From Hyalella azteca (taxonomy: Eukaryota; Arthropoda; Malacostraca; Amphipoda; Hyalellidae): a DNA stretch of 64,000 bases. The notes under the pieces are model-generated. The model saw only the letters and a program-made list of their open reading frames with translations. It ran no database searches and was not told where the DNA came from. The number at the start of each line of letters is the position of its first letter. The first letter of the stretch is position 1. Shown here one piece after another: positions 1,418 to 59,235 of this stretch. The stretch covers positions 1 to 64,000 of the forward strand of contig NW_025940926.1 of NCBI RefSeq assembly GCF_000764305.2, in the 5' to 3' direction. A program made the translations under genes and the position numbers.

Positions 1418-1534
1418 GGTACTGCAGTGCACAGAACATCGTCAACTTTAACGCGACCTCCAACAGACTGCAAGTGCGCTTCAGGTCCGACTTCTCTGTG
1501 ACGGCCAGAGGCTTCCGCGCTCGATACTTCTCAA
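1418..1534 (+). CDS. CUB b, second-half exon (5' edge lost at the N at 1417)
   Basis: Reads YCSAQNIVNFNATSNRLQ then VRFRSDF and GFRARYFS before donor GTAATT, the C-terminal half of a CUB domain with the fourth Cys present. It ends in phase 1 and joins cleanly to the exon at 2121 (A plus AT). The true order is therefore this exon followed by 2121, which argues that 1-1416 is misplaced. Confidence 0.75.
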
Positions 1535-4500
1535 GTAATTCTTTATTATTCTTTATTAATGACTCGGTCTATTGAATATTAAATTTATGCATTGAATATT
1601 AGATTTAAACTAACCTAAAGGTATGTCCATATGTTACGAGGGACAGTATCAACTTTGCGTAACACGAGACTATTAGTTATCTGCAGTAACCGAACATGTT
1701 CATCATACTTCTTGGGATTCAACGCCAACAGGGGAATAAAGACAACCCACATTACACTTTCGTCATTTGTCCGATGTCATTTTCAAAACTAAGTGATACA
1801 AAATTTAAAGTGATGTCTTTTCAATAATATTTGTATCGTAATGATACTTTTAATAGTTCTTTTTTTATTGAGCTTTCAATTAAGGAAGTTTCTGTAAATC
1901 GTCATGTATTAAAGATTTAAATTGAACATTCCCAATTTAAGAAATATTTTACCATTTTTTAAATATCATCTCCCCTCTCGTTATAATTTGTATTACATTG
2001 ATATTTCGGCAACATCTCGTTATAATTTGTATTACATGCAAAAAAATACTGTTTCATTGATACTTCGAGAATTGTATGATACTTTACTGTACTTTTATTC
2101 GTTTCTTTTTTAATATTCAGATTGTCATAACGAACTGACCGGTCCACACGGAGTAATCGAAAGCCCCAACTTCCCCTTGCCCTACCCCCACGACCGCAAC
2201 TGCTCCTGGACCATTCGGGCGCCGCGAGGCAACAGCATCAGGATGGCCTTCAGTCACTTCGATGTCGAGGATCCAATCCATCCGGCCTCCAGTACCTGCC
2301 ATTGGGACTACGTCGAGGTAACCTGAATACAATACAAATAACATGACAGATATAATATTGATGTATGTCGAGGACCCCATCCACCCGGCCTCCAGTACCT
2401 GCCATTGGGACTACGTCGAGGTAACTGAATACAATACAAATAACATGACAAGTACAATACTGACGTATGTCAAGGACCAAATCCACCCGGCGTCCAGTAC
2501 CTGCCATTGGGACTACGTCGAGGTAACCTGGATACAATGCAAATAACATGACAAGTACAATATTGACGTATGTCGAGGACCCCATCCACCCGGCACACTT
2601 TGCCACGTCATACCCGGCACACTTTGCCACGTTACTTCTTTACCTCTAATCAATATATCTTATCTGCCAGATTAATTAGTTCGGAACTGCAGTTGGGAAT
2701 CACCTATGTTTTCGAATCCAAGTGCTGAATTCCATAACAAGTTTGGTTTTTGTTTCATCTGCGGCATGGGTGCCAAATGATAATACTGCGGCATAATACA
2801 ATTCTCTCGATCCCCGTAGCTGCGCGTTGGACGTCAAATGGAAGCGGACCGGACGGTGCTGGGACATTTCTGTGGGACTCGGACACCTCGTCCCCAGTTG
2901 TCAGGGGAGGGTATGGACGTCATGGAGGTTGTCTTCATAAGCGATGCTTCCGTTGCCATGAACGGCTTCAGGGCTGAGTGGCAGATTATAGGTAACGAAC
3001 GCCTTCAAATTTTATTCTTCGTGCAATTTAATCCTCTTACTTCCCACAGAAGTTGAGTAATCCCATGCAGGATTTTGATCCACGAAACAGATAGGATACA
3101 GAGAGAATGCATGGGAAAGCATTAGTGCGGTAATGTTTTATAATTGTCATGTTATAATATTTTACTTTTAGCTAGAGTGGAAGAAAATCTGTTCTGGCTT
3201 GTAGGTATGTACATAAATTAATTTCTTGGACGCTCCTACTTTTTTCAAAACAAAATGACAATTTATGAATAATGTTCTATTAACAACTTATGAATATGAC
3301 AATTTATGAATAATATAACACTGACTAGCGTAGTAAAATGAATTAATTAATTAAATTAAAAAACTGAATTAATTCTGAACTCTACAATAACGAATCAGCA
3401 AATCCAGAAGAACGTTTCGCGTGTTTTGATGCACGAAATAATGCAAGTAAATGAGGGTCAATGGAAATCAATTTGTTGTTTCCATCGACATCTTCATTAA
3501 TATAACAATATATACCTGAATCATTGATCACTACTTGCATTATACCATTACACTTTCAACTCCATTATTTCCTATGTCGCTTTAAATTACATACATCTTT
3601 GCAAGATGTGTGACTTCTTGAACCCTGAAACTTAGACGTTATTGCTGCAGGTTGCGGCGGCACCTTCTGGAAGCCTGCAGGCAACTTCACCAGCCCCAAC
3701 TACCCGAGCGCCTACCCCCCCAACCGAGACTGCGAGTGGCACATTCGCACCGCCCCAGGCACGCGCGTCCAAATCACCGTGCACGGCTATGACATCGAAG
3801 CGCCCACGCACACTGATGAATGTGTCTTCGACTCGCTCAAGGTCAGGCAGGCTCTAATTAATGTAGTTGTATTGATCTATTATTGAAGGATGTATTATTG
3901 AATTATTGAAGGATCTAAAATAATTCAATTCAAACTTATTGGTCTATTATTGAATTATTGAAGGATCTAAAGTAATTCAATTCAAACTAATTGATCTATT
4001 ATTGAATTATTGAAGGATCTAAACTAATTCAATTCAAACTAATTGATCTAGTATTGAATTATTGAAAGATCTAAACGTGTAGTTTTCATTTCGCCAAAAT
4101 TACACGTGTTTCATATACTGAAACGTCCCAATATTGGGTATGTTGTTTTAAGTCAGAATGTTCCACGCCTGCTCGCCAGAGCACTTGTTTGCTCAGTGGA
4201 ATGATCATATAATGAACATTACAAGCAGGAATGACCAGCTGCGCGGTATGATAATTTTCTAAATACTTTTGTTAGCAAGATTAAAAAATAATATCATAGA
4301 GATACGTGCCCATCACTTATAAGGTCAGCAGAGTATAGCGAGAGATGTGCCGTCAGACGATGTGCGTAATGGTGAGATATAGATATGGTGAGCAGGTGTG
4401 CGTAAGATATGGTGAGCAGGTGTAAAAAATGATGTTATCACGAGCAAGAGTACGTGACGATGACATGTTAAGTAAACGTACGTTACGATTGTATGGTGAG

Positions 4501-7500
4501 TGGGTGCACAAGATCAGTACATCAGGAGCAAGCATGAGTGACGGTGATGTTGTGATCAGATATTCGGTGGACCAGACGTCTCCTCGCCGCTACTGACGCA
4601 GCTGTGCCACAAGAGCTCCCAGGAGGTGATCGTCACCAGCGACGGCAACTCTGCGCTCCTCGTCATGAACAGCGATGGCTCTGTCAGGGGCAGCGGCTTC
4701 GTCGTGTCTTACACGACGCTTGCTGGAGGTGGGCTTGTGAACTCAACGGAGTTTCTTCCTATGTTTGATGATTCTCAGGAAATCGAGATTCAAAATCAAT
4801 ATTGCGTGTGTTTGAAGCCTGCCTTGTGCACCATCTAAGCTTAATATCCATAAAACCTCACCTAGCTCCATTTTCTAATGGAACTGTCCCTGCAGTGTGC
4901 TTAGCCTTTATTTAATTTTTCCTTTACCAAGAGTGAAAAGAGTGTATGTACTTACACTTTAGTTACTTCCGTTCAGTAAGAAGTCCGAAACTCTACTCTA
5001 GAAGCAGCGAAAAACATCACAAAAATTCTTTTGACACTGTTCATTGCCCGATCTCATCTTTCATCCTCAAACCCTTCGACAACACAAGAGAGAAATCAGA
5101 ATTCTACATTCCAGTTATCGTCATTAGAATAATCCATTATTGACAGTTATTATTAGTAAAGCATTTCATGGTCATGTATAGCATGCCTTCAAACTCTGCC
5201 CGTAGATCAGAGTTTCGAAGAAGAGATAATAGGTGACCCGAGTTGATCTTGTTTGTACAATGTCTTGTTAAGAACCAGATGACCTGAACTTGTGAGGTAA
5301 GCTCTGAAATTCTCACCAGCCTCATTACCATCATACCAATTATGAAATTTTATTCTCTTTTCCGACTGCCGTTCGAGAAATTGTCATGTAGTTATTTTTG
5401 GCCAGTCTTGTTAATTTTGCGTAACAACGTGACTATTTTTATCTTGACTAATTCAGTAATGACTTTACGTACGTTTGTTTTTCTTATAGGCTGCGGTGGT
5501 TTGTTTACCGCTCCCCAGGGGTTAATTCAGTCTCCCGATTACCCATCGACTTACGACAGCCATGCCGACTGTACCTGGACCATTACTGTCAACCATATGC
5601 ACGTCGTCAAGCTCACATTCCTCGATTTTGACGTCGAACATGACGCCAATTGCTCCTACGACGCCCTAACAGTAAGCGTGCAAGCCGAACACCCGTCAAC
5701 TGGGGTCTCGACTTTCTCTCTGTAACTATGTAGAACTCTACGCCTTATGTACTCACGGCTTTCTCTCTGTGACTATGTAGAACTCCACGCCTTATGTACT
5801 CACGGCTTTCTCTCTGTGACTATGTAGAACTCCACGCCCTATGTACTCACGGCTTTCTCTCTGTAACTATGTAGAACTCCACGCCTTATGTACTCACAGC
5901 TTGGTCAATGTCCATGCTAACCACCAAATACTCTCTTGACTTCCTTGATATAGAGGTCATGCAGGACACAAAGTTGGCCTTAAATTATATTAATTTATTA
6001 AATTGTAACTGCTTTTGCGCTTCCTGAGAGATTGCCGTGTCCCAGCAATCTGTCCAGGTAATCCGTAAACAGATTGTTGGATTACGACTGGGCAAAAACG
6101 AGCCTTCCGATAGGTACAAAATCAATGTGGTTAAAGGAACATTGGTTGTCGGTACATGCATGNATGCATGTTAAAAACCGGCCATAAATGTAGTCACTCT
6201 ATTAGCTGAGTAATAATTTATAGATCACGAATTTCACAAAGATTTTCGCTGCAGGTTTACGATGGCGAGAACACAAGCATGCCCCTGCTGCTGCATCACT
6301 GTGGGTCGTCTGTGCCAACGCCTGCGGTGTGGCGGTCCTCTGGCCCATCGCTGACGCTGCGCCTGAAGGCTGACGCTAACGTGCAGGGCCGCGGCTTCCA
6401 GGCCAACTACACCACAGTCAGTCCTGGCAAGCTTATGTATCACCCTTATGTGACATGCCTTGTTGTGGATGCTACCATCAATAGCGTGAATGCAACCATC
6501 ATGCCTTGTTGTGGATGCTACCATCAATAGCGTGGATGCTACCATCATGCCTTGTTGTAGATGCTACCATCAATAGCGTGGATGCTACCATCATGCCTTG
6601 TTGTAGATGCTACCATCAATAGCGTGGATGCTACCATCATGCCTTGTTGTAGATGCTACCATCAATAGCGTGGATGCTACCATCATGCCTTGTTGTAGAT
6701 GCTACCATCAATAGCGTGGATGCTACCATCATGCCTTGTTGTAGATGCTACCATCAATAGCGTGGATGCTACCATCATGCCTTGTTGTAGATGCTACCAT
6801 CAATAGCGTGGATGCTACCATCATGCCTTGTTGTAGATGCTACCATCAATAGCGTGGATGCTACCATCATGCCTTGTTGTAGATGCTACCATCAATAGCG
6901 TGGATGCTACCATCATGCCTTGTTGTAGATGCTACCATCAATAGCGTGGATGCTACCATCATGCCTTGTTGTAGATGCTACCATCAATAGCGTGGATGCT
7001 ACCATCATGCCTTGTTGTAGATGCTACCATCAATAGCGTGGATGCTACCATCATGCCTTGTTGTAGATGCTACCATCAATAGCGTGGATGCTACCATCAT
7101 GCCTTGTTGTGGATGCTACCATCATGCCTTGTTGTGGATGCTACCATCAATAGCGTGGATGCAACCATCATGCCTTGTTGTAGATGCTACCATCAATAGC
7201 GTGGATGCTACCATCATGCCTTGTTCTAGATGCTACCATCAATAGCGTGGATGCTACCATCATGCCTCGTTGTAGATGCTACCATAGATAGCGTGGATGC
7301 TACCATCATGCCTTGTTGTAGATGCTACCATCAATAGCGTGGATGCTACCATCATGCCTTGTTGTAGATGCTACCATCAATAGCGTGGATGCTACCATCA
7401 TGCCTTGTTGTGGATGCTACCATCAATAGCGTGGATGCTACCATCATGCCTTGTTGTGGATGCTACCATCAATAGCGTGGATGCTACCATCATGCCTTGT

Positions 7501-10500
7501 TGTNTCCCGGCATATATCACCCTTCTGTCCCGGCATATATCACCCTTCAGTCCCGGCATGTATCACTCTTCTGTCCCGGCATATATCACCCTTCTGTCCC
7601 GGCATATATCACCCTTCAGTCCCGGCATGTATCACTCTTCTGTCCCGGCATATATCACCCTTCTGTCCCGGCATATATCACCCTTCAGTCCCGGCATGTA
7701 TCACTCTTCTGTCCCGGCATATATCACCCTTCTGTCCCGGCATATATCACCCTTCAGTCCCGGCATGTATCACTCTTCTGTCCCGGCATATATCACCCTT
7801 CTGTCCCGGCATATATCACCCTTCAGTCCCGGCATGTATCACTCTTCTGTCCCGGCATATATCATCCTTCTGTCCCGGCATATATCACCCTTCAGTCCCG
7901 GCATGTATCACCCTTCAGTCCCGGCATGTATCATCCTACTGTCCCGGCATGTATCACCCTTCTGTCCCGGCATGTATCACCCTTCAGTCCCGGCATGTAT
8001 CATCCTACTGTCCCGGCATGTATCACCCTTCTGTCCCGGCATGTATCACCCTTCAGTCCCGGCATGTATCATCCTACTGTCCCGGCATGTATCACCCTTC
8101 TGTCCCGGCATGTATCACCCTTCTGTGACATACCTTGTTCTGGGTGCTACCATCATGCCTTGTTGCGGATGCTACAGTACCATCAAGCCTTGTTGTGGAT
8201 GCTACCATCATGCCTTGTTATGGATGCTACCATCAATAGCACAAAGAGTAGCAAGAATTAGATGGCTGCATGGTGTTCGCTGTACACGTAAATGCTTATC
8301 CATGTCGCTCAGAATATTCTAACGATCATAATGAGTTTGTAAAGATGTGTTATGCAACGTTTTGTGAAGTTTTCATTTTATTATATACAAAGTTTGGCGA
8401 TTCTTCGTTTGCCGCGGTTTAGAGAGATTAGAACAGGATGCAATAAGTAAAAAATTGCGAATTAGTGTCACCTTCGCATGCGTAAGTTCCTTATCTATGC
8501 CTAACATCAAGTGTGCATGAAAGTATACATTTATATATGACCATATACTGCCATGAGAACATCAAGTAATGGTTTAAGACTGGCTCTCTCGACTAACGTA
8601 TTAACTGCTTTCTCCCCTCCACTTCCCGATATACCGAATTCCACGCTGGTAGTGCGTTTTCCATTTTCGTAATTAACAAATTTAGAGACGTAAAAACTCG
8701 CTTAGTGTCAGTTGGGCATATTACCGAAACGGCTTAGTGGATGCTATGCATTTTTAGGCAACTTCAAACATATATTTGAAGAAGAAAATAGAAGATTCGT
8801 TCTTTACACAATGGACAGTACCTTTTCAGCACTCACCCATTCAGAGACAAGAGTTGTGTGGGCGTGTCGTGTCATATGCTAGCCTAGAGCAAAATACGTT
8901 TCAACGTACATATATTTCGAATTTTTGTAAAGTATTTCTTAAAATGTTGTCATCAATGCAGCGCGATGTAGGAAGGATTACTTATACATGTACCCTCGGC
9001 TTGTTGCTTTTCCAGGCATGTGGAGCACGGCTCAGCCTCAACCCCGGCACTGTGGGACAACTAACCTCTCCCAACTTCCCGAACGTCTTCCAGGCGGGGG
9101 TTAACTGCACCTGGCACCTAGAAGCTTCTCCAGGTATCAATTAGCGTTAAATATGGCCTAATAATGGATTTAGGGATCACAATTGCTGTAACTGCCTCTC
9201 TTGCGCGTACCTTAATCAGCTTCTAAATATCGCTCTAAATATCTAAATATAAGCTCTCTACATTTGCGTATACATGATATTACATTTCAAGTCATCACAG
9301 AAATCGTTGGCTAAGTCTTTGCCTTATGTTCAGGTTTATATAGCAATTTCGGTTGTAAATATTGTTAAATTCTTTGGATTTATACCGAAAATGTTTCGGC
9401 GTGCATGCTTCAAGGCCACAGAAATAAGGCAAATGCATGCTAACGTAATTTCTTCCATCGATGTTCTATGACGATATTGCGTACTTTCCTGTGCAGGCGA
9501 GCGCATTCAGCTGGTGTTCAACNATCTAAGACCGCGTTTATTGTGTTATTTCCGTTCAAAATATCATAAGAAACCCAAGAATCTGAGACCGCGTTCATTG
9601 TGTTATTTCCGCTCAAAATATCATAATTAACCCAATAATCTGAGACCGCGTCTATTGTGTTATTTCTGCTCAAAATATCATAAGAAACCCAAGAATCTGA
9701 GACCGCGTTCATTGTGTTATTTCCGCTCAAAATATCATAAGAAACCAAAGAATCAGAGACCGCGTTTATTGTGTTATTTCCTCTAAAAATATCATAAGAA
9801 ACACCCAAGAATCTGAGACCGCGTTTATTGTGTTATTTCCGCTCAAAATATCATAAGAAACCCATGAATCTGAGACCGCGTTTATTCTGTTATTTCCTCT
9901 CAAAATATCAGAAGAAACCCAAGAAACTGAGACCGCGTTCATTGTCTTCAGATTCACGACGGCGCGACGCAGTCTTCGCCCGAGGTCGCTCGCTTCTGTG
10001 GCACCTCGTCGCCGCCGACGGTTTACTCTTCGTCGGCGCAGCTCACCGTGCGCATGGTCGTCAGGATGGCCACGGGTGTCGGCTTCAGGTGAGGGCAAGT
10101 GAGGGTACGTGCTGCAGGTGAGGGTACGTGTGGCAAATGAGGACAAGTGAGGGTAAGTGAAGGTAAATGATGCATGTGTGGGTACGAGCAGCAGGTGAGG
10201 GTACGTGCTGCAGGTGAGGGCAAGTGAGGGTACGTGAGGGTACGTGCTGCAGGTGAGGGTACAAGCTGCAGGTGAGGGTACGTGCTGCAGGTGATGGTAC
10301 GTGCTGCAGGTGAGGGTACGTGCTGCAGGTGAGGGTACGAGCTGCAGGTGAGGGTACGTGCTGCAGGTGAGGGTACGTGCTGCAGGTGAGGGTACGTGCT
10401 GCNCCGTGGGACAGCTAACCTCGCCCAACTTCCCGAACGTCTTCCAGGCGGGGGTTAACTGCACCTGGCACCTGGAAGCTTCTCCAGGTATCAATTAGCG

Positions 10501-13500
10501 TTAAATATGGCCTAATAATGGATTTAGGGATCACAATTGCTGTAACTGCCTCTCTTGCGCGTACCTTAATCAGCTTCTAAATATCGCTCTAAATATCTAA
10601 ATATAAGCTCTCTACATTTGCGTATACATGATATTACATTTCAAGTCATCACAGAAATCGTTGGCTAAGTCTTTGCCTTATGTTCAGGTTTATATAGCAA
10701 TTTCGGTTGTAAATATTGTTAAATTCTTTGGATTTATACCGAAAATGTTTCGGCGTGCATGCTTCAAGGCCACAGAAATAAGGCAAATGCATGCTAACGT
10801 AATTTCTTCCATCGATGTTCTATGACGATATTGCGTACTTTCCTGTGCAGGCGAACGCATTCAGCTGGTGTTCAACCACCTGGACATCAACATCCCGTCG
10901 TTCGCTTGGAACAATGGCAGCTGCATCAGCGACTATGTTGCGGTCAGAACTACAAATTTATTTTCATGTTTATTACTCAATTTCTTATTGCAAAATTTAT
11001 TATGCAGTCACAATTGTAAATCAAAATTACGCCTGTTATTTAGTTTCATGGTTGATGCTCAACGACAAAATACGACTCATCATCAACTATAATCCTTGAC
11101 GAATAATTATTGCGTCAACCATATTTCTCACAGCTCTATTTCCACTCAAAATATCATATGAAACACACGAAGTCAACCATATTTCTCACAGCTCTATTTC
11201 CACTCAAAATATCATATAAAACACACGAAGTCAACCATATTTTCTCACAGCTCTATTTCCGCTCAAAATATCATAAGAAACCCAAGAATCTGAGACCGCG
11301 TTCATTGTGTTATTTCCGCTCAAAGTATCATAATTAACCCAATAATCTAAGACCGCGTTTATTGTGTTATTTCCGTTCAAAATATCATAAGAAACCCAAG
11401 AATCTGAGACCGCGTTCATTGTGTTATTTCCGCTCAAAATATCATAATTAACCCAATAATCTGAGACCGCGTCTATTGTGTTATTTCTGCTCAAAATATC
11501 ATAAGAAACCCAAGAATCTGAGACCGCGTTCATTGTGTTATTTCCGCTCAAAATATCATAAGAAACCAAAGAATCAGAGACCGCGTTTATTGTGTTATTT
11601 CCTCTAAAAATATCATAAGAAACACCCAAGAATCTGAGACCGCGTTTATTGTGTTATTTCCGCTCAAAATATCATAAGAAACCCATGAATCTGAGACCGC
11701 GTTTATTCTGTTATTTCCTCTCAAAATATCAGAAGAAACCCAAGAAACTGAGACCGCGTTCATTGTCTTCAGATTCACGACGGCGCGACGCAGTCTTCGC
11801 CCGAGGTCGCTCGCTTCTGTGGCACCTCGTCGCCGCCGACGGTTTACTCGTCGTCGGCGCAGCTCACCGTGCGCATGGTCGTCAGGATGGCCACGGGTGT
11901 CGGCTTCAGGTGAGGGCAAATGAGGGTACGTGAGGGTAAATGATGCAGTTGAGGATACGTGCTGCAGGTGAGGGTACGTGCTGCAGGTGAGGGTACGAGG
12001 GATATTTCTGTCCCTTCGAGTCATTAGTGTAGTTGCTATTGAAGTCGTCAGCTAAAATAATAATAGTAATAGCGTAGACATAAGAACTGAAAGTTAATTC
12101 TCAGGCTTCCTTCCAACTGACTGACAGTTGCGGTACGCCACGACGGTAAAATGTTGTCCAGTAGAGCCTCTAGTGAACTGGAAAATATTTCCGGGGCAAA
12201 TAACAACGCTGAAATTATTAAATTCGAATTTATCAGCTTCTGAATAGAAGTAAGATAATTAGATTGGGTTTCTAAAGTTTCTTGAGGTAATAATTAATAT
12301 TATGTCCAGGGCGACGTACAGCGAAGTGACGACGACTTGTGGCGGCGAGCTATCGTCGGCATCAGGACAGTTTGCCTCACCATTTTACCCCGATTCTTAC
12401 CCCAACGGCTACGACTGTACCTGGACCATCACTGCCGGGCCAGGTAAACTAACCCGATTCTTACCCGACCAGGTAAGCTAAGAGTGACGGTTTTGGGGTA
12501 AGTTTTAAGTTTCCATCGTTTAGCTTAACGGTAGTTAGGCTTGCGTTAGTGTTGTCGTGCGCACATCAATTTCGAGGGGACGTTGTTTAGTTGAAGCAAA
12601 GCTGAGAATTTCGTTTATGTTTCTGTTTAAATCTTATGTTTTTTCTATCGCCTATTTATCTGGGTAACGCTAATGTTTTTGAATAGTAACTTTAATGTCA
12701 TTTGCAGGCAATTCAATACCTATACGCAATTAATCTCTTATCGTGCATTTCTAATTTGAATTAAAATGACGTATTAACAGAAAGCCTCATATATTCCCTC
12801 GCTAATCAGGTAACAAAGTGCAGCTGAGCTTCCCGCAATTCGAGCTGGTCGAGAGCGACAACTGCAACCTGCACTACGTGGAGGTGCACGAGCGCGACTC
12901 GTCGGGGCCGCTACTACTGCACAACTGCACCGGCGCACCGCCCGCCCTCACGGTGCAGGAGGCCGCGTGGGTGCGCTTCAGGAGCGGCGACAGTGGCACT
13001 GCCGCTGGGTTCATGGCTTCGTATGCTTTAGGTGAGAGTATTTTTTGCACGTTTTGACTCCATGTACAGATAGCTTATTTTTTAGCGAATGAAATTGTTT
13101 GCGATAACATGATAGGACGGTCAATATCCGTCTGTTTTTTTAACATCATATTTTTACGATCCTGAACTGCTGAGCAAGGCTGACAAGTCTGGACTGAGCT
13201 GACCATTCGTGCATTGCGCTAAATGCTAAATTTTTTAGCGAAATTGAGGCCATTCTTCAATTTAAAAACATGAACTTTATAGTTTACACACTTGATTTAT
13301 TCGTTATTCAAGTCTAAATTTATTGCATGAAGTGAACACCTGTTTTTATTACAGTCTTCAACAACGTCTTGTACGGCGACTCGGGTCAGATTGTGTCCCC
13401 CCTCTACCCCCACACCTACCATGGACTCAACGAGTTCACCTGGCGTGTGCAAGTGACTGGTAACTACGCTTCTGTCACCATTGACGAGATGAACATCGAA

Positions 13501-48285: not shown

Positions 48286-48289
48286 GACA

Positions 48290-48445
48290 GGAATGGAAGT
48301 CGTTAGTGACGCGTACTAATACTTGGGAGGTATAAAAGTTGTTAGTGACACGTACTAATACAGTAATACTTGGCAAGAATAAAAGTCGTTAGTGACGCGC
48401 GCTTGGCAGGAATAAAAGTCGTTAGTGACGCGCTAGGCAGGAATA
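48290..48445. repeat. Array with AAAAGTCGTTAGTGACGCG
   Basis: About four or five units of variable length. Confidence 0.75.
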
Positions 48446-48989
48446 GCAGTGGAGGTCAATCGCAGCGGCCAGGAACCTGGATTGTTTTGGTGCAGTGTGC
48501 CGCAGTGCGCCGGCGAGTTAGGATGTGTGGTGTTGTTCCCGCGATCCTCAGGCTCGTGTGCTCGAAGATCTTATGTTATTTTGCTCAGGTTGTGCGAATA
48601 ATATAATTCACTCTTAACATTGAGAGTGAATGTTATTCATGCTATAATTTATGTTGATATGTTTTCAATTTGGTCGTAACGTTTTGATTTGTATGGATGA
48701 TATTTGAGGGTATCAAAATTAAAATAGCCTACGACAAGCGAACTCTTTCCCTGCCTGCCCTCGGAAGTCAAGTGACGACTGAGCTGCCACAATTTAAAAA
48801 CAATTTCTACGAACTTTCCTGAATAGGAATTTTATATTTGAGTCCTGCGTCGCTGGCAGGGAAAATTTTCCTATTCAGGCAGGGATTTTTTTCTTTAAGA
48901 AATCGAAATTAGAAAGCCTGCAGATCACTACATGGTAGCCGGGCCAGGTCTCAGTAGCCGAATTTGGATTATGGGCGTATAGTTTCCGT

Positions 48990-49285
48990 AGACTTGTGCA
49001 AGTTCTATTTGATGAGTAGAAGTGTTGCCTTCTAGTAGATGAGTAGAAGTGTTGCCTTCTATTTGATGAGTAGAAGTGTTGCCTTCTAGTAGATGAGTAG
49101 AAGTGTTGCCTTCTATTTGATGAATAGAAGTGTGGCCTTCTATTTGATGAGTAGAAGTGTTGCCTTCTATTTGATGAGTAGAAGTGTTGCCTTCTATTAG
49201 TTGAGTAGAAGTGGTGCCTTCTATTTGATGAGTAGAAGTATTGCCTTCTATTTGATGAGTAGAAGTGTTGCCTTCTATTTTGGAG
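48990..49285. repeat. 27-bp array
   Basis: About 10-11 units of TGCCTTCTATTTGATGAGTA plus GAAGTGT. 27 is divisible by 3, hence long open frames on the minus strand. Confidence 0.9.
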
Positions 49286-49439
49286 ATTTTTCCAAAAGTC
49301 AAAAACAAAAAAGTAAGGCAAATAAAATTTCGACATGAAACTAATGCACGAGAGAAATTACAGTTTAAGCCGACACGTACGAGTATAGGTTAAAAGAACT
49401 AGTTACTCTGCATACTAATTGTATAGAAACATTTAAATC

Positions 49440-50180
49440 GAAAGAGTTTTCTGGACACAAAATTCCTGCCTTGTACAAGTTGAAATAAGCAAATTTTATA
49501 AAGTCTAAGACGGAAGTATTACACGCAAGTGATATCAGCAGCAGGAGTAGGAGGAGGAATATAGAAACATTCAAATCGAAATCGAAGTTTTCTGAACACA
49601 AAATTCCCGCCTTGTACAAGTGAAAATAAGCGAATTACTTGAAGTCTAAGACGAAAGTATTACACGCAAGTGATATTAAAAAGAGGAGCCGCCTTGTACA
49701 AGTTGCTATAAGCAAATTACTTGAAGTCTAAGACGAAATTATTACACGCAATTGATATCAGAAGCAGTAGGAGTAGGAGGAGAAGNGAGGAATATAGAAA
49801 CATTCAAATCGAAATCGAAGTTTTCTGAACACAAAATTCCCGCCCCGCACAAGTTGCTATAAGCAAATTACCTGAAGTCTAAGACGAAAATATTACACGC
49901 AAGTGATATTAGAAAGAGGAGCCGCCTTGTACAAGTTGCTATAAGCAGATTACTTGAAGTCTAAGACGAAATTATTACACGCAAGTGATATCAGAAAGAG
50001 GTACCGCCTTGTACAAGTTGCTATAAGCAAATTTTCTAAAGTCCAAGACGAAAGTATTACACGCAAGTGATATTAGAAAGAGGAGCCGCCTTGTACAAGT
50101 TGCTATAAGCAAATTACTTGAAGTCTAAGACGAAATTATTACACGCAATTGATATCAGAAGCAGTAGGAGTAGGAGGAGA
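49440..50180. repeat. Array upstream of the sulfotransferase start codon
   Basis: Units of 80-170 bp with CGCCTTGTACAAGTTGCTAT, AAGTCTAAGACGAAATTATT and ACACGCAAGTGATAT. The last unit runs into the ATG at 50185, so it may include the 5' UTR or the promoter-proximal region. Confidence 0.82.
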
Positions 50181-50184
50181 AGAC

Positions 50185-50336
50185 ATGCACTTGTTCCTGC
50201 AGACACTATACCTGCTGACTGTGATGGTCTGCACTGCGATGCTCATGCTGGTGCTGCTGCTCGTGACGCCTGATGTGCACTACAGGCTCAGTCAGGGCGT
50301 GTACAGGCGAGCCCTCACCCCAGCCTTCTTGCAGGG
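50185..50336 (+). CDS. Sulfotransferase exon 1: start and signal anchor
   Basis: ATG at 50185 with a G at -3; an in-frame TGA lies about 75 nt upstream. Reads MHLFLQTLYLLTVMVC and continues hydrophobic to LVLLLVTPDVHY, a single N-terminal membrane segment. Ends phase 2 (CAG GG) at donor GTGAGT, which is repeated in the 21-bp array that follows. Confidence 0.82.
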
Positions 50337-53300
50337 GTGAGTTGGGGACTGTGAGGGGTGAGTTGGGGACTGTGAGGGGTGAGTTGGGGACTGTGAGGGG
50401 TGAGTTGGGGACTGTGAGGGGTGAGTTGGGGNTCTTGCATGTATCCATGGGACAGGAAGTAGATCTTCTCGTATGGTCAGCAGGTGTTGTCCCTTTCCAG
50501 AAACTGCAACAGTTTGGTGCCAATTTTCCTGCCAACGAGCAAGTAATTGTCTACTGAGCCAATATTTACTGTCTGCAAACTCTACCGGGTGGAATGAGCT
50601 ATGGTCTGTCTCTTATACACATCTAGATGTGTATAAGAGACAGGTTGGGGACTGGGGGACTGTGAGGGTGAGTTGGCGTCTTTTAGGGGTGAGTTGAGGA
50701 CGGGGGGAATGTGAGGGGTGAGTTGGGGACTGGGGGGACTGTGAGGGGTGAGTTGGGGACTGAGGTAACTGTGAGGATGAGTTGAGGACTGGGGTGACTG
50801 TGAGGCGTGAGTTGGTGACTGGGGGACTGTAAGGGGTGAGTTGGGGACTGGGGTGAATGTAAATTGTGAGTTGATTTCCAGTGATGACATATGTGGTTGA
50901 GTTGGCACCTCAGGAGTGAGTCTACCATCAAGTGGTGAGTTAATGAGAATCACCATCACACTGAAAAATAATTTGGTTTATATACTCGTACAATACTAAA
51001 TTGTCACTAAGATTTCCCTTATGTTATAGCGGCTATCCTTTAAGCCACGCATATGCCTTCGCGCCATTGACGCTCAGCCATGCTAAAAATCGTGCAACTT
51101 TTGGCGTGGCCAGACTTGAGCCGCCGAAATTTTTGAGGGTTTTATAGAGGGTAAGAGGGGATACTTAGAGGGTATAATTGGGCAGCAGTTACGCCAGAGG
51201 TTACGACCAAGACATTCTCGTGGTGCAGTCACGCGAGCCTCAGGTCAGCCATTGATCGCTCGGCGTGTTGTAGCTTGGCCATTGTAAGGCTCACCAGTTA
51301 GGCTTCTCACGATACGATACGAGTCTCAAGATAAGATACGAGTCTCAGGATAAGATGCAAGTCTCAAGATACAATACGAATCTCAGGTTTTAGCCCTGAA
51401 TTTCATTCTACGTCACAGGGATACGTTATACACATTATAGGTATTCTGCTTCTCAAGATACGATACGAGTCTCAAGATACGATACGAGTCTCAAGATAAG
51501 AAACGAGTCTCAAGATACGATCCGAGTCTCAGGTTTTAGCCCTGAATTCTATTCTACGACACAGGGATCCGTTATACACATTATATTCTACTTCTCAAGA
51601 TACGATACGAGTCTCAAGAGACGATACCAGTCTCAAGGTACGATACGAGTCTCAGGTTTCAAGCCCTTCTATACCACGTCCCAGGGACCCGTTATACATA
51701 ATATATTCTACTTCTCAATATGCGATACGAGTTTCAAGATACGATAGGAGTCTCAAGATAAAATACGAGTCTCAGGTTTAAGCCCTGAATTCTATTCCAC
51801 GTCACAGGGATTTTGCTGCGGTGGGGGCCGTGGTGAGCGACGAGCGACGACGCGACGTGCAGACGTCGGACGTCTCGGCGGCGGTAAAACACGAGGTCGC
51901 ATGGGACTACACAGGCAATAATACAGGTGTGTGGGGTGTGTCGTGTTGTATAGACTATACAGGAAATAATACAGGTGTGTGGAGCGTGTCGTGTTGCACA
52001 GAATATACAAGCAATAATACAGGTGTGTGGGGTGTATTGTGTTGTACAGACTCTACAGGCAATAATACAGGTGTGTGGGGTGTGTCGTGTTGCCCAGACT
52101 ATACAGGCAATAATACAGGTGTGTGGGGTGTGTCGTGTTGTACAGACTATACAGGCAATAATACAGGTGTGTGGGGTGTGTCGTGTTGTACAGACTATAC
52201 AGGCAATAATACAGGTGTGTGGGGCGTGCCGTGTTGTACAGACTATACAGGCAATAATACANNNNNNNNNNNNNNNNNNNNNNNNNNNNNNNNNNNNNNN
52301 NNNNNNNNNNNNNNNNNNNNNNNNNNNNNNNNNNNNNNNNNTACCGGACAAGCCTCCTGACCACTACCTTCTCAAAAACCTTGATCACATGTGAGGTCAA
52401 GGTCACAGGTCTGTAATTTTGGGGTCTGTCCCTCGGACCTCCTTTGTGGATTGGCGTTATCAGTCCCACTTTGAGACCCTCAGGGATAATTCACTCTACT
52501 ATTACTAGTGATGGTGTACTGCCGGGCGGCTCCAATACACATCACCGCGTGTTTGCATGCCCAGGTCCCTTTTATTCTACTATAACCAGTGATGGTGTCC
52601 TGCAAGGCAGCCCCAACACACATAACTGCGTGTTTGCAAGTGCTAGGTCCCTCTTTTTCTACTATTACTATTTACTAGTGATGGTGTGCTGCAGCCCCAA
52701 TACATATCAGTGACATCACCGCGTGTTTGCATGCCCAGGTCACCTGAAGCTGCTGCTGGACTATGAGCGTCCGTAGCACGCGGTGTGGGCGGCCGCAGCG
52801 GACGGCGCCTGCGCTGCGCTGCGCGTTCGCTTCGCACGACGTCACTCCCTGCCACGCACGGCGCTCGCCTCGTACCCTGGCTCCGGCAACACGTGGCTTA
52901 GGTGTGTGTATGTATATGTGAGTGGTGTGTTGTATGTGTGTGTGTATGTGAGTGTGTGTTTGATGTGTGTGAGTGGTGTGTTGTATATGTGTGTTTGTGT
53001 GTATGAGTATGTGAGTGGTGTGTTGTATGTGTATGAATTTAAGTGGTGTGTTGGATGTGTGTGTATGTGCGTGAGTGGTGTGTTGTATGTGTGTGAGTTA
53101 TGGTGTGATGTGGAGATTTGATGATGACTGATCCATGCGATTAATGTTGTATGGAATATGTTTGTTACATGTGCCGTCAGTGCCGAGTTACAATTGTATG
53201 AAAATCATCTGATGAGTGTCTTGCTATAGAGGAGGGGCACTGGTATCGGCAAGGCGCCCGGCGCCTAAAAGCTGAGGCTGTTGCGTACACGTATCTGCAG

Positions 53301-56300
53301 CATGCAACAGTGTGACAGACAGGGTGACAGTTATTGGTACGGATCAACAAGTGTGTCACTAATATGGGTCATGCAGTCAAGAATAGGACAACCAGGAATA
53401 TGACCAGGAATTAATAGGACCAACCTATAGTGGGACCAGCATGCCTGCCCACGGTAGGGACGACGGAGGCGGAACAGCCACATGACCGTGCACGGAGCCG
53501 TTTGTGCCTGTATGTCCCAGGCATTTATGTTTATGCTTATATTACTATAGGTTGGCAAAATTTGTTCCTTTAAGCAGGTATCATTGAAGAGCAGAGAATC
53601 CGTTTTATTGACAATTTTCTTATTAGTTTTTTTGTGTGTGTGCAAAAAACTAATAAGAAAATTGTCAATAAAACGAATTCTCTGGTCTTCAATTTATGCT
53701 TGTATGTACTATTTGTGTGAATTTACACGTGTGTGTGTGTGTGTACATTTGTGTACCTAGACATAAAAAGTACAATTCTAAAAGGTATTGTGCAAATCGT
53801 TTTAAAAAATTTTAACATTTAGGTGACTCTGTTTATTTTCCAACTGGAGGGAATTTGAAGTATAAATTGGACTGATCTTAACAATAAACTGGACTGATTT
53901 TGAACGCTAACTATGCTTGCTCTTCACGATGAATGCACTACGTCAACTTCATGGCCCCTATGATGGGACCAACATGCCTGCATTAGCTGTAACCAAGTCC
54001 TGCTGCTCTTCATGGCCCCTATGATGGGACCAACATGCCTGAAAACGGTAGGGACGACGGAGGCGGGACAGCCACATGACCGTGTACGGAGCCGTTTGGG
54101 CCTGTATGTCCCAGGCATTTATGTTTATGCTCGTATCAGTTGTATGTACTATTTGTGTGAATTTACACGTGTGTGTGTACATTTGTGTACCTGGACATAA
54201 AAAGTACAATTCTAAAACGTATTGTACAGAACGTTTTAAAAAAATTTAACATTTCGGTGCCTATGTTTTTTTCAACTGGAGGGCATTTGGAGAATAAATT
54301 GGACTGATCTTAACAATAAACTGGACTGATTTTGAACGCTAACTATGCTTGATCTTTACGATGAATGCACTACGTCAACTCAGTATTATTATGCTTTTAC
54401 ATTTCAAATCATTAATCCTTGCGCAGATACCTGATCGAGGGCAGCACAGGCATCTTCACGGGCTCAGTGTACAGCGACCGCCAGCTCGCTGCCAGAGGTG
54501 CGGGTCTCAGAGACAAAAATATATTGTATTACATGTAAAGATGAGGCATAAATTCATTTGCTTCTGTAGCATAAACTACTGTAGCATAACTACTAGCATA
54601 ACTGTAGTATAACTACTACTGCTACTGCAGCATAAATTTATTTGCTACTGTAGCATAAATTTATTTGCTGCTTTTCGTATCAAATATTTGCTACTGAAGA
54701 ATTTAGGCGTAGCAGGATGTCAAATACATCGAGGATAGACTCGTTATTAAAATCTGCGCAAACGGTTTCTGCAAAATAATTAAGAAGGCTCAAGTAAACC
54801 AAAATTAATAGAATGATACATTTACACTTGGTACACATCAATATGTCAATAGAAATATTCAAAGATTAAATAGTGAATATTCAAGATAACGGAGAAGTCC
54901 CTTACCGATCAGTGCTGACACCATCACAATGCAAACAGCATCACAGTGCACCATCGCAAGCCCAGTGCAGACACCATCACAGTGCAAACACAATCACAGT
55001 GCAGACACCATCACAGTGCAGACACCATCACAGTGCAGACACCATCACAGTGCAAACACCATCACAGTGCAGACACCATCACAGTGCAGACACCATCACA
55101 ATGCAGACACCATCACAGTGCAGATACCATCACAGTGCAGACACCATCACAGTGCAGACACCATCACAGTGCAGACACAATCACAGAGCAAACAGCATCA
55201 CTGTGCATCATCACAAGCCCTGAACAAAGACACAAATTTCGATCCACTCAAGCCTTGCCTAGTTCTACATAGAAAATTTTCAGTAGTTAGAACTGAATAC
55301 GTCGTATCAAAATGCGCGGCCGCAACATGTGTAAATTGAGGTTTTCGTATACACTGAATAAAACAAATGATGCACGTCGCATGCAAAACATGCAAATTAA
55401 GGAACAAATTAAAACAATCCTTGCCATTGTAGGCAGGTAGATCACATTTCATTACTCTTTTTGCATCACAGGTATTTCCCATTTCTCTAATAGGGTTGCA
55501 CCTGGCCCTATCTCGCATTATTGTCAGAGTTGTTGTCTGACGGAGTTGTCGCGTGCAGGCTTCTACGCATTATTTATCTCGCATTATTATCAGAGTTACT
55601 GTTGTTTGAAGGAGTTGTCTTGTACAGCTTCTACGCATTATTTATCTCGCATTATTTTCAGAGCTACTGTTGTTTGAAGGAGTTGTTTTGTACAGCTTCT
55701 ACGCATTATTTATCTCGCATTATTTTCAGAGTTACTGTTGTTTGACGAAGTTGTCGCGTGCAGGCTTCTATGCATTATTTATCCCGCATTATTTTCAGAG
55801 TTACTGTTGTTTGACGAAGTTGTCGCGTGCAGGCTTCTACGCATTATTTATCTCGCATTATTTTCAGAGTTACTGTTGTTTGACGAAGTTGTCGCGTGCA
55901 GGCTTCTACGCATTATTTATCCCGCATTATTTTCAGAGTTACTGTTGTTTAACGAAGTTGTCGCGTGCAGGCTTCTACGGCGAGAACGTGAGCCCAGAGT
56001 GCGGCTGTACAGTCGCGGTCAAAACGCACGGCTACTGCCTCATGGGCGTGCCCGTGGACCGGTAACTTAGAAATTAGATTTGCCTTTGTTGAAATTAACC
56101 CACTCGTCAAATTTATGTTGATTTTATATGACAATGAATTACCAGATTTTTTAAAATGAATGATGCATGTATCACAAGTGTTTTTAATAGAACTCACTTT
56201 TTACCTCAGCGAAAAAGATATCATATGAAAATCAGTGATAATTTGCGAAGATATTTTTCCTGATCAGTATATAGTATGGGAAAGTATTTCATTCACCACA

Positions 56301-59235
56301 AGTATTAATTATAGTCAGAACATAGAACAGAACTATATATATCTTTTATACAACATAGAACTATAAAACTTTGCCATGGCCTTAAAATCAGCTAAATGTA
56401 GATTCTCATGTTTTGTAAAGTTCTAAATTATATACATGGTTACTGCATTTTTTAGCGCATTTTCTCATTTATGGAAAAAAGGCGCTATTATGCTACAGTC
56501 ATGTCCGCCCGTCCGTCTGTCTGTCCGCCTGTCTGTCCGTCTGTCTGCCCCTCTGTCTGTCCGTGACCTCACGGACGGATGAGAAAATGCGCTCTCTGTC
56601 ACTTACTGCAGTGAGTACTGATTTAATTTTTCACTTTCATGTTCGTAGGTCAGTGAGACTACGAGACCAGGACCGCTTCTTCAGACGGGCGCTGCTGCTG
56701 CTGAGAAGCCCATACGACAGCATCATCTCCTACAGGAACTTCCAGGGCGCTGGCCACCTCGGCCTCGCCCCTCCCAGTGCCTTCAGGAAACAAGGTGCTG
56801 AGTGGCACTATTGAGTGACACTGCTGAGTGACACTTTTGAGTGACACTGCTGAGTGACACTATTGAGTGACACTATTGAGTGACACTATTGAGTGGCACG
56901 GTTGAGTGGCACTGCTGAGTGGCACTGTTAAGTGGCACGGTTGAGTGGCACTGCTGAGTGGCACTGTTAAGTGGCACGGTTGAGTGGCACTGTTGAGCGA
57001 CACTGCTGTGTGGCAGGGTTGACTGACACTGCTGAGTGGCAGTGTTGAGTGACACTGTTGAGTAACACTACTGAGTGACACTGCTGAGTGGCAGTGTTGA
57101 GTGACACTGCTGAGTGGCAGTGTTGAGTGACACTGTTGAGTGACAGTGTTGAGTGACACTGCTGAGTGGCAGTGTTGAGTGACACTGCTGAGTGGCAGTG
57201 TTGAGTGACACTGCTGAGTGGCAGTGTTGAGTGACATTGTTGAGTGACACTGCTGAGTGGCAATAAGTGGCACTGCTGAGTGACACTGCTAAGTGGCACT
57301 GTTGAGTGGCACTGGTGAGTGGCACTGATGAGTGACAGCTTCTGAGCGACACTGCTGAGTGACAAATTGAATGATACTGCTGAGTGACACTGCAGAGTTG
57401 CACTGTTGAGTGGCACTGGTGAGTGGCACTGATGAGTGACACAGCTGTGTGGCACTGTTGAGTGGCACTCGAAGTTAATCGTTCGCTGAGAGTTCCTTCG
57501 ACGCAATAGTCAAAACGGTTTAAAAAGGGCCTTCCTCTTTGCAAAATTCTTTCAAACCTCGGTGCCGTCGCTGCACAATTTGCATGCGACTCCTCAAGAC
57601 ACGAAGACAAACAAAAAATATAACTCAGTACTCACTGCAGTGAGTGACAGAGAGCGCATTTTCTCGTCGACCGAAACGTGAAGTCACGGACGGACAGACA
57701 GACAGACGGACAGACGGACATGGCGAGCACAATGGGACATTTTTTCCATAAATGAGAAAATGCGCTAAAATGAAGTCAGTAAACGTTGTGGTGGAACTTT
57801 TGTTTCTTAAGTTCACTGGCGACGGTTTGGTTCATCACTTGGTTTGTAGGTTAGGAAATCCATTGATGGCAAGCATTCCTTATGTAACGAAGAGATATCC
57901 AGAAAACTCTTATGTTGAGCAATAGTTTTTAAATTTCCACTAGTTCAGAACTGTAAATAATTTTATTATTTCAGAGAGAATTTTATGAAAATTTACATTC
58001 TAATTAAAAATTGGTATTACTGTACATATGTCTAAGTAAAAATATATTTATCTAATTCTTTTTAAACCATAAATTCCTAAAAAATAGAATTAATAATTTA
58101 TTCTTTATCAGACTGGCAGATGTTCGTGAGAAGCCAGGCGCTGATCTGGCGCTCGTTTGCGCTTGACTGGCTCATGCACGGCCGGTGAGCTAAGAACAAT
58201 TCGCCTAGCCTTATTTGGGCCTCGAGATAAAATTAAATTATATGGATATTTTTTGGGGCTTGATTTAAGTATAGATTATTGGAAGCTAAAAAGCTTTTTA
58301 TTGATTCGTATCCTATAAACTGAAGACAAATTTACGCAACAAGGCATTTTATCACATGAGTTTTTGAATTTCAATTTCATCTTCGTGTGCGCTATTTCAG
58401 GAGCATCGAGGTCGTTCATTATGAATCCCTGAAGGACAACCCAAAGAAGGAGCTGCTGCGAGTCCTTAACTTCCTAAGGATACAGCCTGAGCCTCAACGC
58501 CTTGAATGTGCCTTACGATTCCCGGACGGTGCATTCAAGAGGACGGCGACGCGCGACGCTTACTACAAGAGCAGGTACCTGGAATAAATGTGCATGGTGC
58601 CTCTGATATCTTCTTTACTATGAAGCGTTTTTATGAACTTATTTGAAATCTTCTACACTACGAAGCGTTTTGATGAACTTATTCGCAATTATTATAAATT
58701 TGGAAGTGATTTTTATATACCCCTTTTGTACTGTTCATGAGCGGCACATGTCTTCCACGTACTGGAAGCCTGCGAAATTCTAACTTGATATTTTAGCCTC
58801 TTAGCAGCTTATTTCTGTCCGCAAACAGCCAGGTTTCCATGAAAGCTCCTTTATTTCACTAATGATTAAGCGCATAACTCTCGTCAGCTTTGGTTCGCTT
58901 TTAAATAACTGACCAACTTATAGATACTTTTCACAACTCTTTGTAGGGATCCCTTCACTCAAGACCACCACGAGCTCATCGAATCTGCCATGCATGACGT
59001 GAACAACGCGTTGGCGAGACGAGGATTACCGCAGTTACCCACGCACAAGTACTCGTACATTAGAAAAAACGGACCCTACGCCGCACCTAAGGAGGACTAC
59101 GTTATTTTTAACCTGAGCAGCCAGACTGTAGATGATCATGATTTTAAACTTGATAAAAATATCAGGGCCGACAGAAAATTCAGTAAACTTCTCATTCAGA
59201 GAAAAAGAGTTATAAGAAAAAATAAATATCCATGA
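50185..59235 (+). CDS. WSCD-type membrane sulfotransferase (whole gene span)
   Basis: Nine exons sum to 1,218 nt, exactly 406 codons including TGA, with all phases consistent. The order is an N-terminal signal anchor, a short stem, then a sulfotransferase domain with the PAPS 5'-phosphosulfate loop SYPGSGNTWLR and the 3'-phosphate region LLLLRSPYDSIIS, followed by GAGHLG. These match the vertebrate WSCD1/WSCD2 family, which are Golgi type II membrane sulfotransferases. No WSC domain (Cys-rich, carbohydrate-binding) is visible, unlike vertebrate WSCD proteins. An 80-bp N gap at 52262-52341 could hide another symmetric exon, but the phases do not require one. The acceptor substrate cannot be told from sequence. 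Confidence 0.85.
50337..50431. repeat. 21-bp array of GTGAGT donors
   Basis: Four to five units of GTGAGTTGGGGACTGTGAGG plus GG from the donor of sulfotransferase exon 1. Interrupted at the N at 50432 and resumes at 50644. Confidence 0.9.
50433..50605. other. Foreign fragment between an N and an adapter
   Basis: Unique sequence interrupting the donor array and ending exactly at a junction adapter. Source unknown; probably a chimeric mate-pair read. Confidence 0.75.
50606..50643. other. Embedded Nextera mate-pair junction adapter
   Basis: Perfect 38-nt double mosaic end. Confidence 0.97.
50644..50960. repeat. Continuation of the donor array, degenerate
   Basis: Units of GGGGTGAGTTGGGGACTGGG type, 21-35 bp, fading out by about 50960. 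Confidence 0.85.
51305..51780. repeat. Array with ATACGATACGAGTCTCAAG
   Basis: Short units in three or four higher-order blocks separated by TTTAGCCCTGAATTCTATTC, GTCACAGGGA and CCGTTATACA. The last block holds the acceptor GTCACAG of exon 51808-51926, so that acceptor segment also exists in copies. Confidence 0.85.
51808..51926 (+). CDS. Sulfotransferase exon 2: stem region
   Basis: 119 nt, phase 2 to 1. Reads DFAAVGAVVSDERRRDVQTS, then AVKHEVAWDYTGNN. Donor GTGTGT. The exon end ACAGGCAATAATACAG recurs in every unit of the 48-bp array downstream. Confidence 0.7.
51905..52261. repeat. 48-bp array of exon end plus donor
   Basis: At least seven units of ACTATACAGGCAATAATACA plus GGTGTGTGGGGTGTGTCGTG; the first contains the real exon end and donor at 51926. 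48 bp is a multiple of 3. Runs into an 80-bp N gap. Confidence 0.93.
52262..52341. other. Assembly gap (80 N)
   Basis: The only multi-base gap in the window. It breaks the 48-bp array, so its true length is unknown. Confidence 0.99.
52342..52495 (-). pseudogene. LINE reverse transcriptase fragment beside the gap
   Basis: Minus strand reads IPEGLKVGLITPIHKGGPRD, then QNYRPVTLTSHVIKVFEKVV, the start of a non-LTR RT domain. Truncated by the gap. Confidence 0.82.
52799..52901 (+). CDS. Sulfotransferase exon 3: PAPS-binding loop
   Basis: 103 nt, phase 1 to 2. Reads DGACAALRVRFARRHSLPRT, then ALASYPGSGNTWLR. Acceptor GCCGCAG fits the phase; an alternative acceptor CGTAG at 52773-52775 keeps the frame but not the phase. 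Donor GTGTGT opens a GT-rich array. Confidence 0.85.
52902..53100. repeat. GT-rich array starting at a donor
   Basis: Irregular units of GTGAGTGGTGTGTTGTATGT from the donor of sulfotransferase exon 3 onward. Confidence 0.85.
53430..54350. repeat. Segmental duplication inside an intron
   Basis: 53430-53545 and 54020-54140 share GGTAGGGACGACGGAGGCGG and CCCAGGCATTTATGTTTATG. 53700-53935 and 54140-54370 share TGTGTGAATTTACACGTGTG through ACGATGAATGCACTACGTCA. A unit of about 450-590 bp is present twice. Confidence 0.82.
53583..53693. repeat. Long near-perfect hairpin
   Basis: Arms of 50 bp (53583-53632 and 53644-53693) with two mismatches and an 11-nt GT-rich loop. Present in only one of the two duplicated intron copies. 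Confidence 0.92.
54427..54497 (+). CDS. Sulfotransferase exon 4
   Basis: 71 nt, phase 2 to 1. Reads YLIEGSTGIFTGSVYSDRQL, matching the segment after the PAPS loop in WSCD proteins (LIE..TGI.TGS.Y.D). Acceptor GCGCAG, donor GTGCGG. Confidence 0.88.
54900..55200. repeat. 17-bp array
   Basis: About 17 units of ACACCATCACAGTGCAG. 17 is not a multiple of 3, so three frames stay open. Confidence 0.9.
55525..55980. repeat. 69-bp array carrying an acceptor and exon start
   Basis: About six units, each with TTGTCGCGTGCAGGCTTCTA or a close variant. The last GCGTGCAG|GCTTCTACG is the acceptor and start of exon 55971-56061. Each unit also has ATTATTTTCAGAGTTACTG. Confidence 0.93.
55971..56061 (+). CDS. 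Sulfotransferase exon 5
   Basis: 91 nt, phase 1 to 2. Reads GFYGENVSPECGCTVAVKTH, then GYCLMGVPVDR. The KTH motif is typical of the family. The acceptor GCGTGCAG and first exon bases are the last unit of a 69-bp array. Confidence 0.85.
56449..56630 (-). mobile_element. MITE-like element, copy 5 (reverse)
   Basis: Starts TTTTTAGCGCATTTTCTCAT and ends GCAGTGAGTACTGATT, with an expanded CCGTCTGTCTGTCCG core. Lies 18 bp before an acceptor. Confidence 0.8.
56649..56794 (+). CDS. Sulfotransferase exon 6: 3'-phosphate binding region
   Basis: 146 nt, phase 2 to 1. Reads SVRLRDQDRFFRRALLLLRS, PYDSIISYRNFQGAGHLGLA. The R-S-P-Y-D and GHLG motifs match WSCD proteins. Donor GTGCTG opens a 13-bp array. 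Confidence 0.9.
56795..57470. repeat. 13-bp array starting at a donor
   Basis: About 50 units of GTGACACTGCTGA / GTGGCAGTGTTGA starting at the GTGCTGAGT donor of exon 56649-56794. Confidence 0.92.
57612..57770 (+). mobile_element. MITE-like element, copy 6
   Basis: AAAAATATAACTCAGTACTC to GAAAATGCGCTAAAA. Confidence 0.8.
58112..58184 (+). CDS. Sulfotransferase exon 7
   Basis: 73 nt, phase 1 to 2. Reads DWQMFVRSQALIWRSFALDW, LMHGR. Acceptor TATCAG, donor GTGAGC. Confidence 0.85.
58401..58574 (+). CDS. Sulfotransferase exon 8
   Basis: 174 nt, phase 2 to 2. Reads SIEVVHYESLKDNPKKELLR, VLNFLRIQ, then FPDGAFKRTAT. VVHYE-LK-N and FKR are common C-terminal sulfotransferase motifs. Acceptor TTTCAG, donor GTACCT. 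Confidence 0.9.
58947..59235 (+). CDS. Sulfotransferase exon 9 and stop
   Basis: 289 nt, phase 2 to stop TGA at 59233-59235. Reads DPFTQDHHELIESAMHDVNN, then a Lys/Arg-rich tail ending IRKNKYP. The basic tail looks lineage-specific. Confidence 0.85.

Follow-up and report, generated by a model that had tools for sequence, protein, structure and literature searches.

The stretch of Hyalella azteca DNA that we analysed, hereafter the window, is 64,000 nt long and carries two genes on its plus strand, a cubilin-like gene followed by a WSCD-type sulfotransferase gene. The cubilin-like gene is an array of CUB domains that extends over positions 1467..45217 (plus strand) with 39 modelled exons, and its N-terminal part lies beyond the window. 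Profile matches reveal numerous CUB half-domains on the plus strand, one joined domain matches the Pfam CUB family (PF00431) with an E value of 6.6e-22, and the best homologue among those listed is Homarus 'Cubilin-like 2', with 36% identity at 90% query coverage. The second gene, at 50185..59236 on the plus strand, encodes a WSCD-type sialate:O-sulfotransferase-like protein in 9 modelled exons that were placed by the Trinorchestia match and exon-wise tblastn. The best match of the encoded protein is that of the talitrid amphipod Trinorchestia longiramus (71% identity, 100% coverage), and the next matches are from decapods, krill and mantis shrimp at 49-57%. Since no Pfam family was found for the two sulfotransferase pieces that were tried, one of which was an approximate query sequence, the name sulfotransferase rests on the Trinorchestia match. 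On the minus strand, positions 18679-18987 hold a reverse-transcriptase fragment (Pfam RVT_1, E 4e-8).

The exon model was built from CUB profile matches, tblastn searches with six homologous proteins, and splice-site scores, using a chaining procedure that prefers matching phases, and it was afterwards adjusted by eye; the tandem arrays described below were not used in building exons. The model comprises 48 exons, 47 acceptors, 47 donors, and 46 introns. The exon at 33878-33952 was found by eye via the Homarus protein, which backs the exon end at 33952 given by the first-pass annotation of this DNA. The exon ending at 45217 is supported by a Homarus match, and the intron downstream of it lies outside the model. 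Redundant exons (744-915, 9952-10088, and 10386-10487) and spurious chain exons (2475-2522 and 52902-52964) are excluded. Some phase mismatches are left where exons are missing or duplicated, and the exon edges at 1467, 14019, 17547, 29997, 33298, and 52777 are uncertain. Missing exons are probably hidden in 22406-27288 and 41779-45090, and a small WSCD exon may lie within the 80-N gap at 52262-52341. Between the WSCD exons that border 51926-52777, Trinorchestia carries a few residues without a placed counterpart here.

The assembly is short-read in style. At 26890-27060, two complete Nextera junction adapters flank a piece (26933-27004) that resembles the CUB exon at 34787-34926, and this insert is probably a chimera of mate-pair origin that persists in the assembly. 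More Nextera adapter sequence is found at 40983-41001, directly after the array at 40902-40982, as well as at 41369-41387 and 50606-50643. Such adapters and one-N gaps would also agree with the way the Parhyale hawaiensis assembly was produced, from Nextera mate pairs with ABySS and SSPACE (PMC5111886). Positions 9052-10402 and 10406-11997 are redundant contigs: 9524-10111 is 99.66% identical to 11345-11932, and 9052-9522 is 99.15% identical to 10406-10876. Because the sequence flanking two one-N gaps, 9523 and 10403, matches adjacent stretches with over 99% identity, the exon ends at 10088 and 11909, which had been listed as separate, belong to one exon present in redundant contigs. Positions 1-1416 and 2262-3460 hold two versions of one exon together with its 103-bp donor array. 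The exon at 744-915 equals that at 2820-2991 at 171 of 172 nt, the intron stretch after the exon is 85% identical over aligned bases, and the pair represents either a divergent haplotype or a duplicate copy, out of order. Copy numbers differ between the redundant contigs (16.1 versus 3.6 for the 19-bp unit, and 4.2 versus 3.2 for the 103-bp unit), which may reflect haplotype, paralogue, or collapse, and two of the four arrays in this comparison are cut by a contig end or the window end.

Tandem Repeats Finder (TRF) returned 123 rows for the whole window, and these were condensed by hand, with overlaps merged, to 46 arrays within the 46 modelled introns. The arrays at 9524 and 10095, which lie in redundant contigs, are excluded from this set, and the array at 45217 lies outside the modelled introns and is not part of the P values given below. 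Tandem arrays occupy 13,562 of the 43,821 intronic nt, or 31%, so some matches between arrays and splice sites are expected. They are frequent outside the modelled introns too, with 11 listed there, including that at 2-429 in a redundant contig. Array lengths are unreliable, because 11 of 64 arrays are bordered by an N or an adapter. The window also contains a dispersed element roughly 150 bp long, whose copies are 85-90% alike and occur on both strands (32899-33044, 42465-42752, 57610-57770, and 61867-62016); it is perhaps a short non-autonomous transposon. Positions 60117-61401 and 62045-63759 hold two arrays built from one 56-bp unit, and behind each array lies a 0.9-kb stretch that is 94% alike between the two places.

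The first-pass annotation had proposed that tandem arrays in both genes start at, or contain, splice sites. At donors this is borne out, each of the 14 exon ends it named (10088 and 11909 being counted as one) having an array whose start lies at an offset of -56 to +20 relative to the first base of the intron. Thirteen of the 46 modelled introns carry such an array at an offset of +20 or less, and the exon end at 45217 (offset +14) adds another. The exon end at 6416, put forward as a further case, does not belong with these, given that its array starts at offset +37.

At eight of the 14 donors, all on the plus strand, the array holds 4 to 56 exon bases and repeats the junction itself. These arrays lie at 2262..2594 (103 bp x 3.2, with 56 nt of the exon ending at 2317 and the donor kept in the copies), 22357..22763 (162 bp x 2.5, 49 nt of the exon ending at 22405), 35766..36347 (43 bp x 13.8, 36 nt of the exon ending at 35801, three walked donor copies being decayed), 40902..40982 (19 bp x 4.3, 4 nt of the exon ending at 40905, with a Nextera adapter directly after it), 50333..50431 (21 bp x 4.7, 4 nt of the exon ending at 50336, with a one-N gap at its end), and 51905..52261 (48 bp x 7.4, 22 nt of the exon ending at 51926, with an 80-N gap at its end). 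The other two are duplications with only two copies, at 33946..34015 (35 bp x 2, 7 nt of the exon ending at 33952) and 41727..41914 (93 bp x 2, 52 nt of the exon ending at 41778). At the remaining six donors, also on the plus strand, the array merely abuts the splice site. Here the arrays are found at 11930..11997 (19 bp x 3.6, after the exon ending at 11909, with a longer version at 10095-10402 in the redundant contig), 21148..21447 (23 bp, offset +9 from the exon ending at 21138), 38855..39286 (66 bp x 6.5, offset +9 from the exon ending at 38845), 45232..45569 (15 bp x 22.5, after the exon ending at 45217), 52902..53112 (a GT-rich array of about 30 bp units that begins at the first intron base after the exon ending at 52901), and 56796..57469 (13/26 bp, offset +1 from the exon ending at 56794). 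Two later copies at 11909 read CAG/GTGAGG again. The units of the named arrays range from 12 to 162 bp by TRF, and those of the donor arrays are unrelated to one another: among the 91 pairs formed by the 14 arrays, none is better than E 0.03.

Six acceptors had been described as preceded by arrays that carry the splice site, and the site is copied at three, all on the plus strand. The array at 27060..27302 (40 bp x 6.1) includes 14 nt of the exon starting at 27289, and a Nextera adapter forms its 5' edge. The array at 55509..55979 (69 bp x 6.9) includes 9 nt of the exon starting at 55971. At 39446..39624, two copies 109 nt apart include 10 nt of the exon starting at 39615; this duplication has no TRF row, and its boundaries are approximate. 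Arrays end 6 nt before the exon at 11773 and 9 nt before the exon at 38707, and neither site is copied. At 51808 the array ends 21 nt before the exon, and the site is only weakly similar.

To ask how far these associations exceed chance, we first shuffled whole arrays within their own introns. Shuffling yields 1.3 to 3.1 expected arrays at donors, compared with 13 observed, and 1.3 to 3.1 at acceptors, compared with 5 observed. P values from this procedure are stronger, yet it handles an expanded array as if it had been placed as one object, and we replaced it with a seed null in which every array is collapsed to a single unit that is allowed to straddle an edge. Under the seed null, 3.7 donor arrays are expected (3.74), compared with 13 observed among the 46 arrays (P 5.5e-5), and nine arrays start at or before the first intron base compared with 2.5 expected (P 5.7e-4). 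For acceptors there is no excess under this null (5 observed versus 3.7 expected, P 0.32). With a GC weight of 2, which roughly matches the interior arrays, 4.2 donor arrays are expected (4.22; P 1.6e-4) and 3.0 arrays are expected at or before the first intron base (P 0.002). With an exaggerated GC weight of 8, the corresponding expectations are 5.8 (P 0.003) and 4.7 (P 0.04). Each gene taken by itself shows the donor excess under the seed null, with 9 arrays versus 2.8 expected in the cubilin-like gene (P 0.001) and 4 versus 1.0 in the WSCD-type gene (P 0.015). All of these P values are post hoc, since they were computed on the very window whose pattern prompted the hypothesis.

Counting bases rather than arrays gives a different answer. 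A tandem copy matching at least 19 of 26 nt is present at 10 of 46 donors, compared with 25.5% of 6,000 random intronic positions, so this 26-mer test reveals no excess at donors; at acceptors such a copy is present at 4 of 47 sites, compared with 27.0% of 6,000 random intronic positions. Likewise, an array lies within 20 nt of 12 of 46 donors (+1..+20) and 5 of 46 acceptors, compared with 33.6% of interior 20-mers. Repeats are thus roughly as common at donors as in intron interiors, and less common at acceptors, whereas independent donor arrays are about three times as numerous as the seed expectation. The claim of splice-site arrays beyond chance therefore survives for donors under the seed null, and fails for acceptors and for donors measured by base coverage. 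Independent, unrelated arrays do stand at many exon ends in both genes, and those at donors exceed the per-event null. The further proposal that each exon edge has seeded its own array goes too far: 33 of the 46 modelled introns have no donor array, and acceptors show no excess.

We examined what the copied donors would mean for splicing. Many of the walked copies keep the GT with a similar score, and the copies at 35801 and 41778 have decayed. Later copies that were walked score equal to or lower than the authentic donor, with the exception of one at 2420. At several sites the copies match the authentic donor in score, so position would have to decide in favour of the first donor. Nine donor arrays were tested, namely the eight junction arrays and that at 11909. 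Use of a downstream donor copy would add a stop codon in 8 of them, and use of the first copy tested would also shift the frame in 6. Only the array at 51926, with its 48 bp unit, is both in frame and open, and its downstream donors would add 16-residue repeats. The reading frame shared with the homologues is itself open. At four array-bearing donors compared by eye, 50336, 52901, and 56794 (Trinorchestia) and 2317 (Homarus), the homologous proteins continue over the first donor with no residues inserted, whereas at 51926 Trinorchestia goes on with the few unplaced residues noted above.

The first-pass annotation knew of no named phenomenon that fits these arrays, but such structures have been published, both as the 'mirages' of amphioxus (PMC3087553, PMC3902484) and as minisatellites at exon-intron boundaries in humans (PMC2812944). 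Mirages are described as minisatellite-like copies across exon-intron boundaries, on the 5' and 3' sides, with units of 10-160 bp; they are known in Adh3, troponin C, the globins BflGb6 and BflGb9, and PGBD5, their copies carry cryptic AG/GT signals while splicing is normal, and two haplotypes of one gene have 6 and 3 units (PMC3087553, PMC3902484). From these accounts, the amphipod arrays, which are known here from DNA sequence, closely resemble mirages in their junction-spanning structure, their range of unit lengths, and their occurrence on both sides of introns. They differ in belonging to another phylum, in being far more numerous per gene (two genes hold 11 copied junctions), and in their bias toward donors. 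The defining feature of a unit that spans the boundary is present at 8 donors and 3 acceptors and absent at the six abutting donors, and the second feature, a unit that is particular to each junction and varies in length, is present in the 14 donor arrays that were compared.

We favour the reading that these are mirage-type minisatellites, and we consider it probable that they derive from frequent local duplication that is tolerated at junctions, with a modest excess at donors. In such a scheme, an array would be seeded when a stretch of 12-162 bp, lying across or next to an exon-intron junction that already exists, is locally duplicated, and the array would then expand in place. Such duplications would be frequent in the genome, as the share of these introns taken up by arrays suggests, and those lying wholly inside exons would be purged. 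Duplications across a donor would survive if the upstream original donor, which is transcribed first, stays in use; with the original donor in use, the exon and the reading frame would remain intact and the copies would become intron. Across an acceptor, it is the copy adjoining the exon that would stay in use. We infer that donors may be more tolerant than acceptors since the first donor is the first to be transcribed. The donor excess over neutral seeding would need an added cause, of which GC-rich sequence is a partial one. The reverse causality, in which the arrays created the introns, was set aside: at least two array-bearing donors, those at 2317 and 22405, sit, by eye, where many CUB domains are interrupted, so those introns look older than their arrays.

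A more far-reaching reading is one that we put forward only tentatively. Here, a donor-biased duplication process in amphipods, perhaps in malacostracans, would make the 5' junctions of transcribed genes minisatellite hot spots genome-wide, independently of amphioxus, and splicing would routinely pick the first of several identical donors.

It is possible, if somewhat doubtful, that the association is a coincidence in introns saturated with repeats, where arrays arise anywhere and stop at exons under selection with no effect of the junction. The high coverage of intronic DNA by arrays, the similar coverage of donors and interiors, the lack of excess at acceptors, and the abundance of arrays outside the modelled introns are all consistent with this. 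Truncation at the exon edge explains the abutting arrays, but not the eight that start before the first intron base, because truncation cannot make units that contain exon bases. The number of arrays that start at or before the first intron base also speaks against coincidence (P 6e-4, or 0.002 with GC weight 2).

We think it rather unlikely that a mutational process specific to junctions, such as R-loops, G-rich non-template DNA at intron starts, or slippage within the donor motif, makes the donor arrays. Such a process would account for an excess at donors and none at acceptors, and the mean GC content is indeed higher in 13 donor arrays than in 28 interior arrays (0.515 versus 0.413; MWU P 0.004 with the array at 45232 included), but the GC of donor arrays comes partly from their exon bases. 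GC skew is above 0.2 in 8 and below -0.2 in 2 of the 14 donor arrays, compared with 7 and 9 of the 28 interior arrays, a difference relevant to R-loops that is not significant (P 0.08) and is suggestive at most. Donor-like motifs (PWM score of at least 4) are rare in other arrays, with 2 of 28 interior arrays and none of 11 intergenic arrays holding one on the plus strand, and 1 and 2, respectively, on the minus strand; the motif alone therefore seems to be no seed.

That the exon-edge arrays were created by the assembly, through mate-pair scaffolding, adapters, and allelic contigs, is very unlikely. The window does contain Nextera adapters, ten single-N gaps, and redundant contigs, and a share of all arrays is edged by an N or an adapter, as noted above. 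However, 4 of the 15 donor-array rows (10095 counted) touch such a scar, always at the intron-side end, and the exon-side edges are scar-free. Lastly, selection for redundant back-up splice sites, which had also been suggested, agrees with the GT and similar score kept in many walked copies but is highly improbable given the decayed copies at 35801 and 41778, and the stop codons that downstream donors would bring into the mRNA, together with the homologues that cross the first donor, argue for tolerated by-products instead.

Introner elements are a single family of sequences that is found across genes, carries splice sites, and creates introns. The arrays described here resemble introner elements as repeated DNA with splice sites, but differ in that the units of donor arrays are unrelated between junctions and do not form a single family. 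In human segmental duplications, variable internal tandem repeats with units of about 30 bp on average occur at exon-intron boundaries and affect splicing; according to the same account, they vary within primate paralogues of recent origin, often stay in exons, and have been proposed to form new introns (PMC2812944). The likeness to the amphipod arrays, as far as that account goes, lies in the minisatellites at exon-intron boundaries (PMC2812944), and the difference is that the amphipod arrays lie on introns that already exist, in two genes unrelated to each other. Intron gain by tandem duplication spanning AG/GT, which has been proposed to draw on mirages, shares with our arrays a duplication across splice-site-like sequence (PMC3087553; PMC4974935). 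It differs, as described there, in that the duplications here are on existing introns; a new intron was not seen in the window.

Crustacean DNA is known for a high repeat load, as in penaeid SSRs (PMC7878876) and in Parhyale (PMC5111886), and the present introns share that load; junctions are not mentioned in the available portions of these two papers. In the accessible main text of a paper on Daphnia tandem repeats (PMC3152781), the word 'splice' occurs 0 times, and there are no crustacean junction arrays among the open-licence literature matches listed. The amphipod arrays represent a real and named kind of structure in what appears to be a new animal group, with a possible bias toward donors.

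So far, mirages have been treated as something found in lancelets and as material from which new introns may form. The 11 copied junctions in two amphipod genes suggest that the structure can arise wherever local tandem duplication is frequent. The amphipod arrays would let one study how the spliceosome chooses between donors that are almost identical and lie within a few dozen bases of each other, and they would also allow one to ask whether arrays at exon-intron boundaries feed intron gain.
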